Shown piece after piece: positions 1-36,844 of a stretch of 36,844 nucleotides of DNA. The DNA is from Deltaproteobacteria bacterium (GTDB taxonomy: Bacteria; Desulfobacterota; Binatia; Binatales; Binataceae). Under the pieces are notes generated by a model. That model did no database searches, was not told the DNA's origin, and saw only the letters and a program-made list of their open reading frames with translations. The stretch is from the NCBI GenBank assembly GCA_021831785.1, contig JAKBMB010000003.1, positions 1 to 36,844 of the forward strand, given 5' to 3'. The position numbers were made by a program, and so were the translations under genes. The first letter of the stretch is position 1. Every line of letters begins with the position of its first letter.

Positions 1-122
1 GGGCCGCCGTGCCCGCCACGATGCGCGGGCGCCACGCCCGCGCGACCAATGAATCATCGGCCACAGGGCGGGCACGGCGGCCCGCCCTACTACTCAAAAA
101 TTCACAAACTCTCAGCATGACA
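1..122. repeat. Dispersed palindromic repeat, copy 1 (cut by window edge)
   Basis: Positions 1-17 (gggccgccgtgcccgcc) are the exact reverse complement of 67-83. Between them lies an inner hairpin, gcgcgggcg / cgcccgcgc with a cca loop, at about 23-43. The flank at 88-122, from the ctactactc motif to the catgac motif, reappears in inverse orientation at about 8204-8240 with a single mismatch in the compared part. The same GC-rich core recurs at about 8249 and about 36740. The left part of this copy is cut off by the window start. It resembles a non-coding MITE or REP-like element. No coding frame is evident in it. Confidence 0.85.
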
Positions 123-434
123 TCCATGCCCTGCGGTCATTTATGAAGCTACTTCTAATGTAACTCGAAAGGCTCGATTTTGGCCGTCGGGCCGAGTTGA
201 ACGCTGTTGGCTCCGGCGTTATCGACGTTCTCGAGTTGCTGGTGTGTGCGGGCGAGGCGGCCTTTAGCAATGCGCACAAGCGCAGAGCAAGCGGCTGTTG
301 CTTAGTTCCGCGTCGCTCGAGTGCGCAGGCGCTATCGAGGCGCGGCTGAACGGCGATCGACGCTCGATGTACGGCGGCGGAATTTGCCGAGGCCGCGTTA
401 AGGCGGTCAAATCAAATCCGCGGGCGATTTAGAC
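123..434. other. Intergenic region, no gene seen
   Basis: No convincing coding frame is visible between the repeat and the rplS promoter. The first bases, about 119-144, resemble 8515-8540 (gacatcc...cggtcattt), so the repeat flank extends slightly into this stretch. The usual upstream neighbours of rplS (rpsP, rimM, trmD) are not here. Confidence 0.6.
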
Positions 435-7239: not shown

Positions 7240-8076
7240 ATGGAACTGCGCCTTATTACGGCTCGTAGCGAGCGCGAGGTGTTCGAGGAGGGTCTTACTC
7301 AAGCGCGGACGCTCAAAGGCCGCGGCTTTCGGGAGAAGAACTCCTCCCGTGTGGCCCAGGTTCATCTCGCCTTTAGCGAGCTTTACGGAGTTTACGACGA
7401 AAACGGTCCCGAGCCGGACCAGATGCTTGCGGGCTTTGCGATGCATAACATGGCCCAGTTCGGCCCCACCTGCATGAGGCCGGACCTCTCCCATCTGCCG
7501 CCCGAGAACGTTTACGAGATTGGCGAGCTGTGGTCGGTGGTTAGGGGAAACGGGCTCTCACTGCGTTCGGCGCGCGCCCTGGTGACTGCGCGCGCCGGCT
7601 GTGTACTTATTCCCGGGCTCAAGGGCGCGCGAGCGCTGTTCATCTATGCGGTAAGCCGCCGCGAGGACATGAACACCATCTATCCCGAGTTCGAGCCGTT
7701 CGGCCCGCCGGTCCTCGCCTCCTACGTGGAAACTCTCGACGGCGGGGCAGTGTATCTCCAACCCTTGGTGCTCCAGAGGCACGCCCTGGTTGAGGTGTTC
7801 TCGCGATTTTGCACGCTGCGGTTCGAGACCAACAGCGACTATAGCCGGATGAGGATCCACAACCCCTTCGCAGTGGTCCACGTCGACATGAGGTTGGTCT
7901 CCAGGCATCCCGACAGCCAGCCCAGCGTCCGCGGCTTCGGATCAAACGGCCTCGGCAAATCATTTCCGCGCAGCTTCGAGAGAGTCGAGCCTGCAACCTT
8001 CTCCCATCAGGCTTTCCAGCTCGCGGGGTCGGTGCACGCGGAGGAAACGATGAAAGAGCTGTCCACGGCAGGTTGA
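7240..8076 (+). CDS. Uncharacterised protein, possible GNAT-fold acyltransferase (FeeM/LuxI-like)
   Basis: This 278-residue protein is not firmly recognised. Its start is very well supported by GGAGGA at 7227-7232, seven bases before the ATG. It is soluble, with no signal peptide or membrane segment. Residues about 45-135 resemble the acetyltransferase core used by N-acyl amino acid synthases and acyl-homoserine-lactone synthases. A strand reads MLAGFAMHNM (about 62-71) and a VYEIGELWSVVRG segment (about 91-103) looks like the family's conserved Glu strand and turn. Then comes GNGLSLRSARALVTARAG, where a cofactor-binding loop and helix would be expected. The first 35 residues are basic and the last 60 appear loosely structured. 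The resemblance is by eye only. It stands alone, with a repeat downstream and no regulator next to it. Confidence 0.55.
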   Translation: MELRLITARSEREVFEEGLTQARTLKGRGFREKNSSRVAQVHLAFSELYGVYDENGPEPDQMLAGFAMHNMAQFGPTCMRPDLSHLPPENVYEIGELWSVVRGNGLSLRSARALVTARAGCVLIPGLKGARALFIYAVSRREDMNTIYPEFEPFGPPVLASYVETLDGGAVYLQPLVLQRHALVEVFSRFCTLRFETNSDYSRMRIHNPFAVVHVDMRLVSRHPDSQPSVRGFGSNGLGKSFPRSFERVEPATFSHQAFQLAGSVHAEETMKELSTAG

Positions 8077-8158
8077 TTGGTTATTTTCCGGCTTGAAGTG
8101 TCTGTCGACTTAGCGCGAGCGCACCTTTGCTTGTCGGCCGAAGGCAATCGACTCTACG

Positions 8159-8540
8159 GCATATCTTATAAACGCTTTCGCTTTTTCCGTCATGCTGAAC
8201 CCTTCGCCTGTCATGCCGAGAGTTTGTGAATTTTTGAGTAGTAGTGTGGGCCGCCGTGCCGGCCATGATGCGCGGGCGCTACGCCCGCGCGGCCAATGAA
8301 TCGGCAGCCTGCCAAAAATTCACAGGCCCCGAGCGCAGCGAGGAATCCCAGTGGATGCCGGCTCAGGGTAAACTCCGCGAAGTATCTACGCGAAGCGAAT
8401 TGGCTGAAAGGCGATGGCAGAAGGGCATAGAATCGCTGCGCGCAGATTCTTCGCCTGGCGGCTCAGAATGACCAAAGAGGGGCGCGCGGAGTAACCAAAG
8501 AGGGGCGCTCAGGCTGACATCCGTGCTCTACGGTCATTTG
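8159..8540. repeat. Composite dispersed repeat, copy 2
   Basis: Several modules of the repeat family are joined here. About 8166-8240 carries ataaacgctttcg, a gtcatgctgaac motif and an agagtttgtgaatttttg block that matches the start of the window in inverse orientation. About 8249-8300 is the GC-rich core with hairpin gcgcgggcg / cgcccgcgc (tac variant of the arm). About 8377-8467 closely matches 36609-36700, sharing the block ggctgaaaggcgatggca. The 15-base unit ACCAAAGAGGGGCGC occurs twice, at 8471-8485 and 8494-8508. The end (8515-8540) resembles 119-144. There is no coding content. It looks like nested or recombined MITE-type elements. Confidence 0.8.
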
Positions 8541-8565: not shown

Positions 8566-9501
8566 CTATGCGCGAATCGCCCAGAAAAGCCCGTAATCAA
8601 GCATGCCTAGTCTCAGGGCCCGGTAAGATTTGCGGACGTGCTCATACACGTTGTCCAGCTCGGCCCCGGTGACCCGTTTGACATAGTGCCGATACCATCT
8701 GTAAAGGGGCCAAAATTGCAGGACGCCGAGGAACAGGCAGCAGTAGTTTCGCAAGATGTCCAGGTTATGTTTGGTGGCAATTTCAGCCCTGTGCAACCTG
8801 ACCCCTAACTTCCGCAGACTGCGCAGGACAATGTAAGAGAAACTCAGCACCGCCATGCTCATCGCGGCCTGATGAATCGGCGTGCCATATCTCTTCGGCC
8901 AGCGGGACTTCAATAGTGCTTGGGCGAGAGTGCGGGGTTGGGCATTAATGGCGGAAGCCTGTGGGACGGTGCGGATCAGGTGGCGGATGGCCGCGTGCAT
9001 CAGACGGACCTTCTGCGCTGCGCGTATTCCCTTGCCCCGCGGCTGAAGACCCCCTCCCGACATCACGTCGATCACGAATTGAGTTGTCTCATAGATGCGG
9101 CGACGAACGTGCCGCTCAAGTTGTTGCGTGATGCCCAAGACTTTTGCGGCATAGTCTGTGGCGTAGGCCTCAGGCAAGCTCGCGCAGCCCAGGATGGAAA
9201 AGCCCATCATCCCGTGCTCCATGTAAACCTGCTCGCCTTTTTTGATCAGGGCCGGACGCGCCCATCTAGGCAGAATAGCGCTTCGCGCGAAGTAATCGCG
9301 CCAGGCTTTGTCAGCGCGGGCAGACAGGCGCGCTGGTTTAGCCGGCAACGGCTGGTCGTTCGTGATCAGGCCTTCCAATACGTGGCTCACTGCCTCAACC
9401 CCATGCTCCTCGAACAGTACCTGGATCGTGTGGTCAGCCAGACTGTCTCCCATTTGGCGCATCCCATTGAAAAACCCGGGTGTCCATTTGTCCTTACCCA
9501 T
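8566..9501 (-). CDS. Latex-clearing protein / MpaB-type oxygenase (DUF2236 family)
   Basis: The 312-residue product matches the rubber oxygenase/MpaB catalytic family, whose studied members bind b-type heme and cleave or oxidise hydrophobic substrates. Visible hallmarks, in order, are the GFSILGCASLPEAYA helix, the arginine-threonine motif RRIYETTQFV (about residues 134-143 from this start) and the histidine motif VRLMHAAIRHLI (about 165-176). The GTPIHQAAMSMAVLSFSYIV region and a LRKLGVRL segment follow. The C-terminal half has hydrophobic stretches but no clear signal peptide, unlike secreted Lcp. The ATG at 9501 is chosen because GGAG lies about seven bases upstream and 25 bases separate it from the previous stop. 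A TTG at 9579 would add 26 residues and overlap the upstream gene. It is probably co-transcribed with the cyclase/ATPase gene. The substrate is unknown. Confidence 0.8.
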   Translation of the reverse strand: MGKDKWTPGFFNGMRQMGDSLADHTIQVLFEEHGVEAVSHVLEGLITNDQPLPAKPARLSARADKAWRDYFARSAILPRWARPALIKKGEQVYMEHGMMGFSILGCASLPEAYATDYAAKVLGITQQLERHVRRRIYETTQFVIDVMSGGGLQPRGKGIRAAQKVRLMHAAIRHLIRTVPQASAINAQPRTLAQALLKSRWPKRYGTPIHQAAMSMAVLSFSYIVLRSLRKLGVRLHRAEIATKHNLDILRNYCCLFLGVLQFWPLYRWYRHYVKRVTGAELDNVYEHVRKSYRALRLGMLDYGLFWAIRA

Positions 9502-9526
9502 TGGGGGCTCCAGCTTCGGAGGTGCT

Positions 9527-11479
9527 TCAGACTGATTCAGCGAGCAGAATTTTGGCGTCGCGAAGGTCCGGTGTGTCAAAACCCTCGGTGAACCATTCGT
9601 AGACGTTTGCGAGCGTGACGCGGGCCTGTTCGCGTTTGCCTTGCTTTACCCGCAAGCGAGCCAGACTTATAGCGGCGCGCAACTCCCAGGACTTAGCGCC
9701 GAGGGTCGCCGCTAACTGCGCCACGCGCCGCGCCGTCGCGACTTGGTCGAGCCGCGCCGTCAGCAAGTCTTGCAAAGTGGTAGGAATCTCGAACCCCTGG
9801 GGAATGCTCGCCGGTTCGCGGCGGTCGCCTTGCTCTCTGAGCCAGCCCGACTCGAGCAGCATCCTCGTCAACTCTTCCACGAAAAGCGGTACGCCGTCGG
9901 TCTTGGTAACGATCTGGTCAACTATCTCCGGCGCGAGCGTTTTCTCCCACGCCAGCCCCTCGACCATGGTTCGCACCTCTGCGCCCGGCAAGCGGTTGAG
10001 CACAACGGCGGTCACATGGGGACGCGACTCCCAGGGCAGCTTTAAGTGCGGGCGAAAGGTCATGACCGCTAAAATCCGCGCCGCGGGTGCCAGTTGTGCG
10101 AACAAGTCGAGCAACTCCAGCGTCGAAGGGTCCGCCCAATGCAAGTCCTCCCATGCCGCTAACACCGGGTTGCGCTCTGCTTCCGCGGCGAGGAGCGCTA
10201 TCAGCACTTGAAGCGTCTTTTGCTTTTGCATGGAGGGGCTCAGTTCAAGCAGTGGGCAGCCTTCCGGATAAGGCAAGGAGAGCAGCGATGCTAAAAGTGG
10301 AACTCCCTGGTCCGGTGCAAGCCCGTACAACTTGAGCTTGCGCTCCAGCTTGACAAGCTTCTGCTGCGGAGAGTCTTCGCTACCAAACTGCAACAACTGT
10401 CGGACATGTTCGATCACAGGGTGTAACGCGGTGTTCTGATAATAAGCCAAACAGCGAAACTCTATATGGGTATGTCCCTCATGCGCGACGTGCGTTTTTA
10501 GTTCGCGCATCAGCCGTGTTTTGCCGATGCCGGCTTCGCCACTGAGCAGCACGACTTGACTCTGCCCTTGCTTTACCCACTCCCACTGCTCCAGCAGCAG
10601 CCCAAGCTCCTTGTGCCGGCCCACCATGGGCCTCAAGCTCGTCCCGCTGCTAGCATCTGTGCGGCTTTGGTCGCTCCTCTCTGCGAGCACTCGATATAAT
10701 CCTACCGGAGCCGAGATTCCCTTGAGCGGCTGAGAACCGAGACTCTGGCAAACAAAGCGCATCTCAACCAGCTTGTTCGTGACCGCGCTGATCACTACCG
10801 TGCCTGGCTGGGCCAGCGCTTCAATTCGCGCTGCGATGTTTGGAGTTTCTCCCACGATCGCCATCGATTCACGGGATCCCCCAACACCCATATCACCCAC
10901 CACCGCAAGACCGGTATGTATGCCGATGCGCACCCGCAACGGCAGTTTGCGGAGGACTTCCGTATGCTGCAGATCGGCGTTCAGCTGGGGCATTGCGGCT
11001 ACAATCCCCAGTCCGGCACATACCGCGCGCTGGGCGTCGTCTCCATGAGCTTGGGGATAGCCAAAGTAGGCCAACAGGCCGTCGCCTAAATACTTCGCAA
11101 CATGGCCCCCGAACCGAGCGATAACATTGGCGCTGCGCTTCTGATACGCGTGCATCACCTCGCGCAACTCTTCCGGGTCAAGTAGCTCGGAGAGAACGGT
11201 GGACTCGACCAAATCACAAAACATCACGGTTAACTGGCGCCGTTCCGCCTCCGACGTCATGCGCTCGGCAGTACCGGACTCGTGCTGAACTTCGTCCTGG
11301 TCCAGTGCGCTTGTCGCATCGGCCCGAGCGGCAAGCGAGGCGCCGCATTCGTCGCAGAACTTTGCCTGCGGCCGACCCTCAGCGTGGCACGATGGGCAGG
11401 ATCGAGGCAGTTGGGCACCGCAGTGCCTACAGCGCGTCGCGTCCTCTTGATTGTCGGCCCGGCATTTAGGACAAAGCAT
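9527..11479 (-). CDS. Zinc-ribbon / class III cyclase / AAA ATPase regulator, internally shortened
   Basis: The 650-residue protein begins with two zinc-ribbon units (CPKC at 3-6, CRHC at 17-20, CPSC at 28-31, CDEC at 42-45). A class III adenylate/guanylate cyclase domain covers about 80-265, with metal-binding Asp89 in FCDLVEST and Asp133 in LGDG. A STAND-like AAA ATPase follows, with VGRHKEL at 286-292, Walker A GEAGIGKT at 314-321 and a Walker B-like region in AAWEDLHWAD. Relatives usually continue with several hundred residues of TPR-like repeats and end in a WELRAAxSLARL...YxWFTEGFDTPDL segment. Here the ATPase part runs directly into that ending at about residues 593-596. The TPR region is therefore missing while the frame is intact. 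The real substrate, ATP or GTP, and whether it is still regulated, are unknown. Confidence 0.88.
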   Translation of the reverse strand: MLCPKCRADNQEDATRCRHCGAQLPRSCPSCHAEGRPQAKFCDECGASLAARADATSALDQDEVQHESGTAERMTSEAERRQLTVMFCDLVESTVLSELLDPEELREVMHAYQKRSANVIARFGGHVAKYLGDGLLAYFGYPQAHGDDAQRAVCAGLGIVAAMPQLNADLQHTEVLRKLPLRVRIGIHTGLAVVGDMGVGGSRESMAIVGETPNIAARIEALAQPGTVVISAVTNKLVEMRFVCQSLGSQPLKGISAPVGLYRVLAERSDQSRTDASSGTSLRPMVGRHKELGLLLEQWEWVKQGQSQVVLLSGEAGIGKTRLMRELKTHVAHEGHTHIEFRCLAYYQNTALHPVIEHVRQLLQFGSEDSPQQKLVKLERKLKLYGLAPDQGVPLLASLLSLPYPEGCPLLELSPSMQKQKTLQVLIALLAAEAERNPVLAAWEDLHWADPSTLELLDLFAQLAPAARILAVMTFRPHLKLPWESRPHVTAVVLNRLPGAEVRTMVEGLAWEKTLAPEIVDQIVTKTDGVPLFVEELTRMLLESGWLREQGDRREPASIPQGFEIPTTLQDLLTARLDQVATARRVAQLAATLGAKSWELRAAISLARLRVKQGKREQARVTLANVYEWFTEGFDTPDLRDAKILLAESV

Positions 11480-34945: not shown

Positions 34946-36538
34946 ATGTCCGCCACCGCTTCGCAGAACCTCTCTCAGCAGGAAAGATCGTCGGCGCGCA
35001 AATGGCTGGTCGCGCTCGCCGTGATGCTCGGCGCGACGCTCGAGGTGCTCGACACCACGATCGTCAATGTGGCGCTGCCCTACATGCAGGGCAGCTTCGC
35101 TGCCAGCCGCGACGAAATCACCTGGGTGTTGACCAGCTACCTGGTGTCCAACGGCATCATGATTCCGATGACCGGGTGGATTTCCTCCCGCTTCGGGCGC
35201 AAGCGCTACTTTCTTATTTCGGTCGCTGTGTTCGTGCTGGCCTCCGGCCTTTGCGGCGCGGCGCAGTCACTGGGGGAAATGGTCGTCTTTCGTTTGCTTC
35301 AGGGCGCGGCGGGCGCGGCGATGATCCCTTCGTCGCAAGCGATTTTGATGGAAACCTTTCCGCCCGCCGAGCACGGCATGGCGATGGCGGTGTGGGGCGT
35401 CGGGCTCATGGTCGCGCCGATCATGGGGCCCACGCTGGGCGGCTGGATAACCGTTAACTGGTCGTGGCGCTGGAACTTTTACGTCAATCTGCCGACTGGG
35501 CTGCTGGCGGCGTTGATGGCTTATTTGTTCGTCGAAGATCCGCCCTACCTGCGTCGTCAGGCCAGCCGGCTGCAGACCGATTACTTCGGCATCATCTTTT
35601 TGGTCCTATGGCTCGGCCTGTTGCAAATCGTGCTCGATCGCGGCCAGCGCTCCGATTGGTTCGACGCGTCCTGGGTGTGCTGGTTCGCGGTTATTTCCGG
35701 CGCCGCGATGGTGCTGTTGATAATTCAGGAGCTGCGTTTCCCGAATCCGATCTTGGACCTGCGCATCATGGCGGTCCCGGTGTTCGCGGTGGCGGTGGCG
35801 CTCGCGGTGGCGTTGTACATCTCCTTGTTCGGCATCAATTTGCTTAACCCGCTGTATACGCAGGAGCTGATGGGCTATGACGCCTGGGCGGCGGGCAGGA
35901 CGGTGGCCCCGCGCGGGATTACCGCCATGATGGGCCTGCTGATCACCGCGCAACTGTCGCGCCGCGGCTTCGACACGCGCCCGCTCCTCGGGATCGGCTT
36001 CTTATGCATAACGTTGGCGACCTGGAGAATGTCCCAGTGGAATCTCGACCTGAGCATGGGGGCGATGCTGGGCGCGATACTGCTGTACGGCTTCGGCAGC
36101 GGGATGTTGTTCCCGGTGCTCTCGGCAACCTCGCTTTCGTGCGTGCCGCGCGAACGCATGGGATACGCCGCCAGCTTGTACAATATGGTGCGCAACACCG
36201 GCGCCGCGGTCGGCGTGTCCATGGTCAGCAACCTGCTGCAAAGTCTCGAGCAGGTTCATCAGTCCTACCTAGTGGCGCACGTCAGCGCTATCGACGCCTG
36301 GCGGTTGACCCATCAAGGCTTCTACGCTCCCGGCTCGCCTCTGTTCGACATCACGCGGCAGTTGACTACCGGCCAGAAGCAGGCGCTGGGCCTGGTCTAT
36401 AACACGGTCCAGACCCAGGCCTCGCTGCTCGCCTACACCGACATCTACCGGCTGCTTGCCGCGATGACGCTCGTATGCATCCCCGGCTTCCTGATTCTCA
36501 AGCGGACGGTGGGCATGACCGGCCCCGGCGCGCACTAA
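34946..36538 (+). CDS. DHA2-family (EmrB/QacA) drug efflux MFS transporter
   Basis: The product (530 residues from this start) has about 14 membrane segments and the DHA2-family hallmarks. VLDTTIVNVALPYMQGSF lies in helix 1, WVLTSYLVSNGIMIPMTGW in helix 2, RFGRKRYF is motif A, and RLLQGAAGAAMIPSSQAIL follows. WGVGLMVAPIMGPTLGGWI is motif C, followed by NWSWRWNFYVNLPTG. It probably exports drugs or other hydrophobic compounds using the proton gradient. No EmrA/HlyD-type adaptor is adjacent in the window. The start is uncertain: a GTG at 34883 with GAGG eight bases upstream would add 21 basic residues. Repeat sequence begins a few bases after the stop codon. Confidence 0.9.
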   Translation: MSATASQNLSQQERSSARKWLVALAVMLGATLEVLDTTIVNVALPYMQGSFAASRDEITWVLTSYLVSNGIMIPMTGWISSRFGRKRYFLISVAVFVLASGLCGAAQSLGEMVVFRLLQGAAGAAMIPSSQAILMETFPPAEHGMAMAVWGVGLMVAPIMGPTLGGWITVNWSWRWNFYVNLPTGLLAALMAYLFVEDPPYLRRQASRLQTDYFGIIFLVLWLGLLQIVLDRGQRSDWFDASWVCWFAVISGAAMVLLIIQELRFPNPILDLRIMAVPVFAVAVALAVALYISLFGINLLNPLYTQELMGYDAWAAGRTVAPRGITAMMGLLITAQLSRRGFDTRPLLGIGFLCITLATWRMSQWNLDLSMGAMLGAILLYGFGSGMLFPVLSATSLSCVPRERMGYAASLYNMVRNTGAAVGVSMVSNLLQSLEQVHQSYLVAHVSAIDAWRLTHQGFYAPGSPLFDITRQLTTGQKQALGLVYNTVQTQASLLAYTDIYRLLAAMTLVCIPGFLILKRTVGMTGPGAH

Positions 36539-36542
36539 AGCC

Positions 36543-36695
36543 CATCTCATAAACGCTTTCGGGTTCTCCGTCATGAACGCTTTTGCTTTCTCTGTCATGC
36601 TGAACGAAGTGAAGCATCTACGCGAAGCGATTTGGCTGAAAGGCGATGGCACAAGGGCATAGAATCGCTGCGCGCAGATGCTTCGCTGCGCTCAG
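36543..36695. repeat. Composite repeat, copy 3: tandem units plus long inverted repeat
   Basis: Two diverged 24-base tandem units, starting aacgctttcgg (36552-36575) and aacgcttttgc (36576-36599), both end in gtcatg. They are followed by an inverted repeat with 33-base arms, 36600-36632 and 36663-36695, which match at 28 of 33 positions when one is reverse-complemented. The 30-base spacer contains ggctgaaaggcgatggc. The arms and spacer closely match 8377-8467. Transcribed, it would form a very long hairpin just after the efflux gene, so it may also act as that gene's terminator. Confidence 0.8.
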
Positions 36696-36702
36696 AGCCT
36701 GT

Positions 36703-36844
36703 AAATTTTTAGCCCTGAAACGAAAATCAATCTTAGTAGGGCGGGCCGCCGTGCCCGCCATAATGCGCGCGCGCCACGCCCGCGCGGCCAATGACCACCC
36801 ACCGACCGGGCTGGCACCGCGGCCACAGGGCGGGCACGGCGGCC
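36703..36844. repeat. Dispersed palindromic repeat, copy 4 (cut by window edge)
   Basis: The flank agccctgaaacgaaaatc (36711-36728) matches the ends of the MITE-like element at 11611-11834. The GC-rich core beginning gggccgccgtgcccgcc, its inner hairpin region cgccacgcccgcgc, and the closing arm ggcgggcacggcggcc (ending at 36844) match copy 1 at the window start. A roughly 20-base insertion or divergence is seen in the middle. The element is cut by the window end. Confidence 0.85.

Follow-up and report, generated by a model that had tools for sequence, protein, structure and literature searches.

We analyzed positions 8159–8540 of a 36,844-nucleotide stretch of DNA (the window), which is contig C11 of a 3.68-Mb draft genome in 34 contigs placed in the family of Ca. 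Binataceae, candidate phylum Binatota. The locus is very probably a three-layer nest of non-autonomous mobile elements produced by successive insertions: a backbone miniature inverted-repeat transposable element (MITE), here called F1; a second MITE, called Z, inserted into it; and, inside Z, a repetitive extragenic palindromic (REP) sequence. In the probable order of events, an F1 copy would have been placed by an IS5-family transposase sharing the F1 ends (IS, insertion sequence). Z, with 17-base inverted ends, would then have entered a CTC[A/G]G site, mostly with a 3-base duplication; such sites are present in the inverted F1 arms, the left arm having been taken here and the right arm in other copies. 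A REP, or an inverted pair of REPs (REPIN), forms the GC-rich core of Z, and the helper of Z may be an IS1031-like DDE enzyme.

The blocks that make up the locus are real, and their repeat signal lies far above chance. A query of 8165–8540 (376 bases) gave 95 BLAST matches in the host genome, the second best with E = 1.9e-123, and queries from the right and left window ends gave 87 and 78, counts in which several matches can be fragments of a single place. A preliminary description made from the letters alone had recognized four blocks, all of which we recovered. The GC-rich core of the window ends is present (8248–8329 versus 1–82, 71% ungapped; 36743–36824 is 82% like 1–82), as are an inverse copy of the left flank (64–122 versus 8209–8267, 92% complementary over 59 nt) and a 90-base block (8363–8454 versus 36595–36686, 88% over 92 nt). 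An end resembling 119–144 was also seen, with GACATCC[GA]TGC[TC]CT[AG]CGGTCATTT read directly in both places. We adjusted the bounds of 8159–8540 to 8154 for the start of the backbone and 8539 for its end, at which the final ~16 bases are absent. The same description held that the blocks vary in order and direction. This is true between copies, which do not share one fixed block order, and the blocks do recur elsewhere in the genome; aligned backbones, however, keep a single order, and it is the Z insert that moves.

Z (ends GAGYYKGTGAATTTTTG) lies in the inverted-repeat arm of F1 with CGA on either side, and its RNA fold reaches −56.7 kcal/mol (z −4.58). Uninterrupted counterparts of this insertion site were found as 12 unique aligned sequences, which overcount the places; merging those that share a 22-mer left 5, so that at least five distinct places retain the site. 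For L121, a sister of the window composite at another locus (L numbers denote loci), the uninterrupted site was found at 8 places, four of them weak. Z occupies the right arm in L007, L150, and L151, and the left arm, in the opposite direction, in the window and L121. Because the arms are mutually inverted and Z lands one way, it comes to lie in opposite directions, hence the appearance of reshuffled blocks.

Counts of ends, pairs, and REPs here refer to own-genome loci fetched for matching the queries, while the BLAST, profile, and 126-place Z-end counts are genome-wide. Read side by side, F1 copies start with CTAGAGCCTATCTCATAAACGC and finish with GGTCATTTATGAGACTACTTCTAG. We counted 33 left and 18 right end matches, some of which are internal, spurious, or IS ends, and 12 complete copies with an inner length of 163–452 bp and no transposase gene (13 pairs were listed, one being a second reading of L151). 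Once Z was excised, the window F1 was collinear with L004, L007, L014, L121, L148, L150, L151, and L155 at 80–86% identity over 104–269 aligned bases; identities were lower for L006 (79.5%), L059 (76.0%), and L049 (62.5%), the alignment covering 11 of the 12 complete copies (all except L030). The middle of the backbone is missing in L148, L155, and L059. F1 occurs without Z in L004 and L014; L006 and L049 were also scored as lacking Z by pattern, yet each has a REP core with other arms. CTAG adjoins at least one side of 11 of the 12 complete copies and is not separable into target and element. At L004, the octamer AGATCCTG borders the TCTCATAAA motif on its outer side at the left edge and follows CTTCT at the right edge. 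The 21-base arm sequence at 8329–8349 recurs 15 times in G026, a genome of another genus in which the exact Z end pattern is unmatched, so the arm repeat seems more widely spread than Z.

A candidate helper of F1 was found in the form of an IS5-family element. PF13340 matches occur at two places in the host genome (three rows), both bounded by facing ends of the type TAGAAGCAGTCTCATAAAT separated by ~815 to 890 bases; in L086, the right IS end deviates in its outer part. Ends of the type CTAGAAGCAGTCTCATAAAT enclose the transposase in L085 and L086 of the host genome and in L166 of a relative, and they resemble the F1 right end CTAGAAGTAGTCTCATAAATGACC. PF13340 was matched in 6 of 41 genomes of the family. 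Among eight loci tested in relatives, allowing ≤3 mismatches, the IS-type end is present on both sides of L166, on one side of L164, L167, L169, L170, and L172, and on neither side of L165 and L168. The transposase exceeds the Pfam cut-off for PF13340 (86.2 bits, L166) and PF01609 (57.8 bits, L085), and the L166 element has overlapping frames. F1 is a MITE whose ends match an IS5-family DDE element, and we infer that the transposase of that element moved it.

The GC-rich core of Z is, by its sequence, a REP or a REPIN of a type that would be tied to the genome's own REP-associated tyrosine transposase (RAYT). The core has the form GT[AG]G followed by GGCGGGC, CGCCGT, and GCCCGCC. Among 102 unique cores, 91 are preceded by AGTGG or AGTAG (control, 0), and for 50 an inverted partner lies no more than 100 bases away. 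A Z end lies near 73 of the 102, a share biased by the fetching of loci that match such composites; the remaining 29 did not pass that test, some of them being Z variants with other arms. REPs also occur outside Z, in tandem, in L006 and L075. The genome has three Y1 matches, and both that were tested with NCBIfam (L032 and L031) are RAYTs. The L032 protein, on contig C10, scores 85.9 bits for REP_Tyr_transpos against a cut-off of 80, and L031 passes as well. Close REP variants flank the L032 gene, and the nearest two, at 1384 (+) and 1918 (−), lie in inverted orientation on either side of the Y1 domain; that at 1918 shares sequence with the opening codons of the mechanical frame 1429–1959, outside matched residues 39–160, and an additional REP lies at 1968 (+). 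The L031 and L033 Y1 loci carry no such REPs at ≤3 mismatches. Inverted REPs on both sides are the arrangement reported for RAYTs (PMC2817692), and REPINs are described as inverted REP pairs (PMC3116915). Helper candidates of both kinds named in the preliminary description, DDE and RAYT, were recovered, and short duplications of the sort it had advised looking for flank Z.

As a family, Z has sharply defined ends. Its terminus pattern (≤1 mismatch) occurs at 126 places in the genome, 61 forward and 65 reverse, with positions listed for 100 of them, and the reversed control gave 0. In the fetched loci, 36 complete copies with sharp edges were paired at ≤2 mismatches, a setting at which more degenerate copies drop out; GAG comes first in 28 of the 36 and stands at the other end in 24. 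Pairing at ≤3 mismatches was discarded, as its 47 pairs include false inner ends (triplets match in 23 of 47; shuffled mean 12.8). The 3-base flanks are identical in 27 of the 36 copies (shuffled mean 21.0, p = 0.0017), with TCA/TCA in 23, TCG/TCG in four, and unequal flanks in nine. An uninterrupted paralogous site was found for 11 of the 36. The arm-type right flank G[ACG]ATGAC (≤1 mismatch) accompanies 19 of 36 copies compared with 8 of 233 CTC[A/G]G sites in the window, so Z is enriched in arms, and copying of whole composites may be part of this enrichment. Z was also read where no F1 or F2 end is visible (L103, L107, L108, and L111; F2 is a further repeat family described below). Its size classes span 74–381 bp and are set apart from one another by palindromic segments. 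Several copies of one class (204 bp in several; L051–L054, L056, L057, L062, and L063) contain a ~29-base unit, GGAGCCTGT[TC]CTGAGCGAAGCCGAAGAAT, in the REP core, and a variant of it, possibly a fourth layer, lies within the decayed IS of L086. The long variants L035, L038, L068, and L102 have an added segment that includes a separate hairpin, GGAGCGCGAATTACGAAGCGTAATTCGCGCTCC (for L102, the start only).

Relative to its target, Z nearly always points the same way. Orienting the copies by their interior showed C as the central base of the target triplet in 33 of 34 orientable copies, and in 16 of the 16 orientable copies without an arm-type flank, which is unexpected for a symmetric DDE element. 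This fixed direction would be an odd feature if upheld. It fits a different mover, namely a single-strand transposase (Y1, IS200/IS605 or RAYT-like) that would set Z 3′ of CTC[A/G]G one way, with Z's own copy of the pentamer at the other end and no duplication; the strong pentamer preference, the long hairpin formed by Z, and the three Y1 matches, both tested ones being RAYTs by NCBIfam, agree with such an enzyme. Nevertheless, the 17-base inverted ends persist with the interior replaced in other genera (L135 and L138), as enzymes recognizing terminal repeats would need. Moreover, a left-hand TCG is in every case matched by TCG on the right (four copies, namely the window, L121, L126, and L028), and no Z end (≤2 mismatches) lies in the examined flanks of the three Y1 genes. 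We therefore consider a single-strand mover unlikely. A RAYT as the direct mover of Z or F1 was likewise rejected, as the ends of neither (≤2 mismatches) are present in those flanks.

Two further accounts dispense with nested insertion. Homologous recombination or template switching between dispersed repeats, without transposition, could exploit the palindromic and repeated arms and would suit the chimeric-looking copies L034 and L069 and the palindromic differences among Z size classes. It is nonetheless very improbable given the sharp edges of the 36 complete Z copies, 17 of which have no arm-type flank, the uninterrupted sites, and the single order kept by the F1 backbone. The preliminary description had proposed that short elements "insert into each other or recombine". 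Insertion is borne out by the inverted repeats at the termini, the short duplications at the flanks, the uninterrupted sites, and the one backbone order that emerges once the insert is removed; recombination is not needed at 8159–8540, even if chimeric-looking copies exist at a few other places. The second account, a single modular element with optional blocks moved whole, as in pneumococcal BOX, draws on a composite on contig C25 (L002/L121) that shares its Z position with the window at 92% identity over 305 bases, so this composite may have been copied as a whole. The separate copies, namely Z without a visible F1/F2 end, F1 without Z, and REPs without F1 or Z, in tandem and beside the RAYT, speak against the modular element as a full account. 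We regard it as improbable in general, while for the F1 and Z pair shared by L121 and the window it may hold.

The reading of the locus as a nest of insertions has several points against it. On the F1 side, the transposase stays below the NCBIfam cut-off for IS5_3 (NF033580, E = 4.4e-29/1.1e-25 from partial frames, 101.8/90.7 versus 110 bits), and the host's own IS copies look decayed, with a stop within the match in L085 and a match split between frames in L086. CTAG flanks both sides of just 4 of the 12 complete F1 copies, and the L004 copy (L004:1417–1712, no Z) bears the octamer on both sides, not CTAG. The window F1 lacks its right end and with it any readable duplication of its own, and the fold of F1 block 8333–8460 is no better than that of shuffles (z −0.66), for which reason we do not speak of F1 arms as hairpins. 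On the Z side, nine copies have unequal flanks, three of them TCA left and TCG right. The duplication test is weakened by the nearly constant target and by the four TCG copies, which probably represent about two independent insertions, because the window, L121, and L126 look related. Some of the uninterrupted sites found for 11 copies are weak matches (L148, E = 4.8e-4), the fixed direction described above weighs on the same side, and no Z helper was found beside PF01609 matches in 8 genomes.

The search for a Z helper extended beyond these loci. No IS1031-type transposase lies between Z ends in the PF01609 loci of the 8 genomes or in 11 GTDB stretches with a Z-like end. These stretches came from a scan for the Z-end pattern followed by C or T, which misses other next bases; five are in metagenome-assembled genomes (MAGs) of the family, and none has a second Z end nearby. 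The PF13340 search of 41 family genomes did not reveal a Z helper, Z ends not having been systematically checked at those loci. The exact Z end pattern is present in 9 of the 41 family genomes including the host, and absent from the one same-genus genome, while a 137-base Z query had matches in 7 of 57 genomes including the host. Other genera of the family have Z-type ends with other interiors and TGA on both sides (L135 and L138, right ends with 2 mismatches). The MAG BP7.bin41, which represents another genus in the family, has copies 93–94% alike (L137, L144, and L146) in which a Z-type end adjoins a different repeat body, CGG[CT]ACGGACGTT.... Loci from G020, G024, and G060, genomes assigned to the host's family, match the records Candidatus Binataceae JOPF038 and JOPF020 and this MAG, labelled Deltaproteobacteria, with full identity across 1663–3015 bases.

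A further repeat family, F2 (L012, L013, L036, L042, and L109), has ends like CTAGTGTG[GA]TGTCCCGCAAATAACTTGACG, starts at CTAG, and carries Z; 25 F2 ends were counted in the fetched loci. IS630 was considered as the helper of F1 or Z and rejected, as none of the six PF13358 matches in the genome has clear F1 or Z ends bounding it; L088 shows weak F1-like ends (2 mismatches) on both sides, and F2 ends fit better. F2 ends lie on both sides of the IS630 transposase domain in L089 (903–2069; 3 mismatches each) and L088 (4 each), L090 was also noted for F2, and the L089 frame passes the IS630 model. F2 thus looks like an IS630-type MITE, with IS630 as a candidate helper of F2 and not of the 8159–8540 locus.

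The composite sits between convergent mechanical reading frames at 7240–8076 (+), which had no match in a Pfam search, and 8566–9579 (−), which matched MPAB_Lcp_cat in the same search (E = 4.8e-7). The nested composite implies no host function. Both window ends (1–111 and 36695–36844) break within Z. By hand count among the matches listed, an F1, Z, or REP match falls no more than 150 bases from at least 20 of the 68 contig ends, and the repeat palindromes therefore probably help to fragment the draft genome.

Table 1 Features of the nested composite and of related copies in the window.
Feature	Position	Strand	Remarks
F1 left terminal inverted repeat	8154..8175	+	CTACGGCATATCTTATAAACGC; 18/22 bases as CTAGAGCCTATCTCATAAACGC; direct reading
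F1 backbone, interrupted by Z at 8220-8329	8154..8539	+	imperfect inverted arms TCATNC[TC]GAGCG...CGCTCAGNATGAC
Left duplication copy CGA	8217..8219	+	read directly
Inserted MITE Z, 110 bp	8220..8329	-	ends GAGTTTGTGAATTTTTG and inverted GGGCCTGTGAATTTTTG
Degenerate REP in Z (GTAG head and imperfect GC-rich palindrome)	8241..8264	+	by eye; sole REP of the window copy
Right duplication copy CGA	8330..8332	+	read directly
F1 second part with 90-base block	8333..8539	+	last ~16 bases (ATGAGACTACTTCTAG in other copies) missing
Part of another Z, contig begins inside it	1..111	+	REP/inverted REP core
Right end of another F1 (..GGTCATTTATGAAGCTACTTCTAA)	112..161	+	direct reading
Left part of another F1, with 90-base block	36535..36694	+	window right end
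Z in that F1 after GCGCTCA, cut off by contig end	36695..36844	+	window right end

If the locus is a nest of successive insertions, the apparent mosaic becomes a readable record in which uninterrupted sites order the layers. Insertion seems to run both ways, F1 entering Z too, because the left part of F1 in L069 was read to start at the CTAG of a Z-like sequence. A bolder view, which we hold to be doubtful, is that Z is a MITE specialized for one-way landing in the inverted arms of other MITEs, with older repeats serving as safe landing pads and REPINs riding inside Z. The locus would then bear a chain of three tiers in which transposition mechanisms unrelated to each other, double-strand DDE and single-strand Y1, amplify in one place, an extension that is equally doubtful. 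Directional landing, if true, would call for a transpososome that is asymmetric or for a step on single-stranded DNA; we know of neither for IS5-type elements, which makes directional Z targeting, if upheld, a testable oddity for DDE elements. The transposases named here for F1, Z, and the REPs are putative movers, judged from sequence. Through this analysis, both REP–RAYT and IS5-type MITEs are described for one family of Ca. Binatota, an uncultured phylum.

Nesting among MITEs is already known, as are REP dimers located within palindromes, and the F1 and Z families belong to ordinary classes of elements. A narrow literature search, made without a sequence-based component, yielded no published description of these families; a full-text search that combined Binatota with transposase and repeat found no paper, and the portion of a review of prokaryotic MITEs available to us (PMC10969869) contains neither "nested" nor "mosaic". 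In the IS1031 subgroup of the IS5 family, which makes TNA duplications, ISLrh has the end GAACCTGTCTAGTATCT. Its 17-base ends start with GAACCTGT, compared with GAGCCTGT in Z, and its 3-base TNA duplication (PMC12016507) compares with Z flanks that are TCA/TCA in 23 of 36 copies, TCG/TCG in four, and unequal in nine. Unlike members of this subgroup, the window Z is flanked by CGA and not TNA, the direction of Z is fixed, and a transposase with Z ends was not found. REP/REPIN–RAYT systems share with our locus the GT(A/G)G head and imperfect palindrome, the inverted pairing, and a RAYT gene situated between REPs, as at L032 (PMC2817692, PMC3116915), whereas here most REP cores (73 of 102) are close to the termini of a MITE bearing terminal inverted repeats. 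The GTAG-15 dimers of A. variabilis are likewise REP dimers within longer palindromic repeats (PMC3733652); here, the outer palindrome has MITE features and a target of its own and is nested in a second MITE. Finally, BOX, RUP, and SPRITE of Streptococcus pneumoniae are composite repeats with variable internal modules (PMC3049150), and the Binatota composite differs from them in its ends, host phylum, and helpers, in having one layer that is a RAYT-tied REP, and in the landing of one MITE in the arm of another in a fixed direction.
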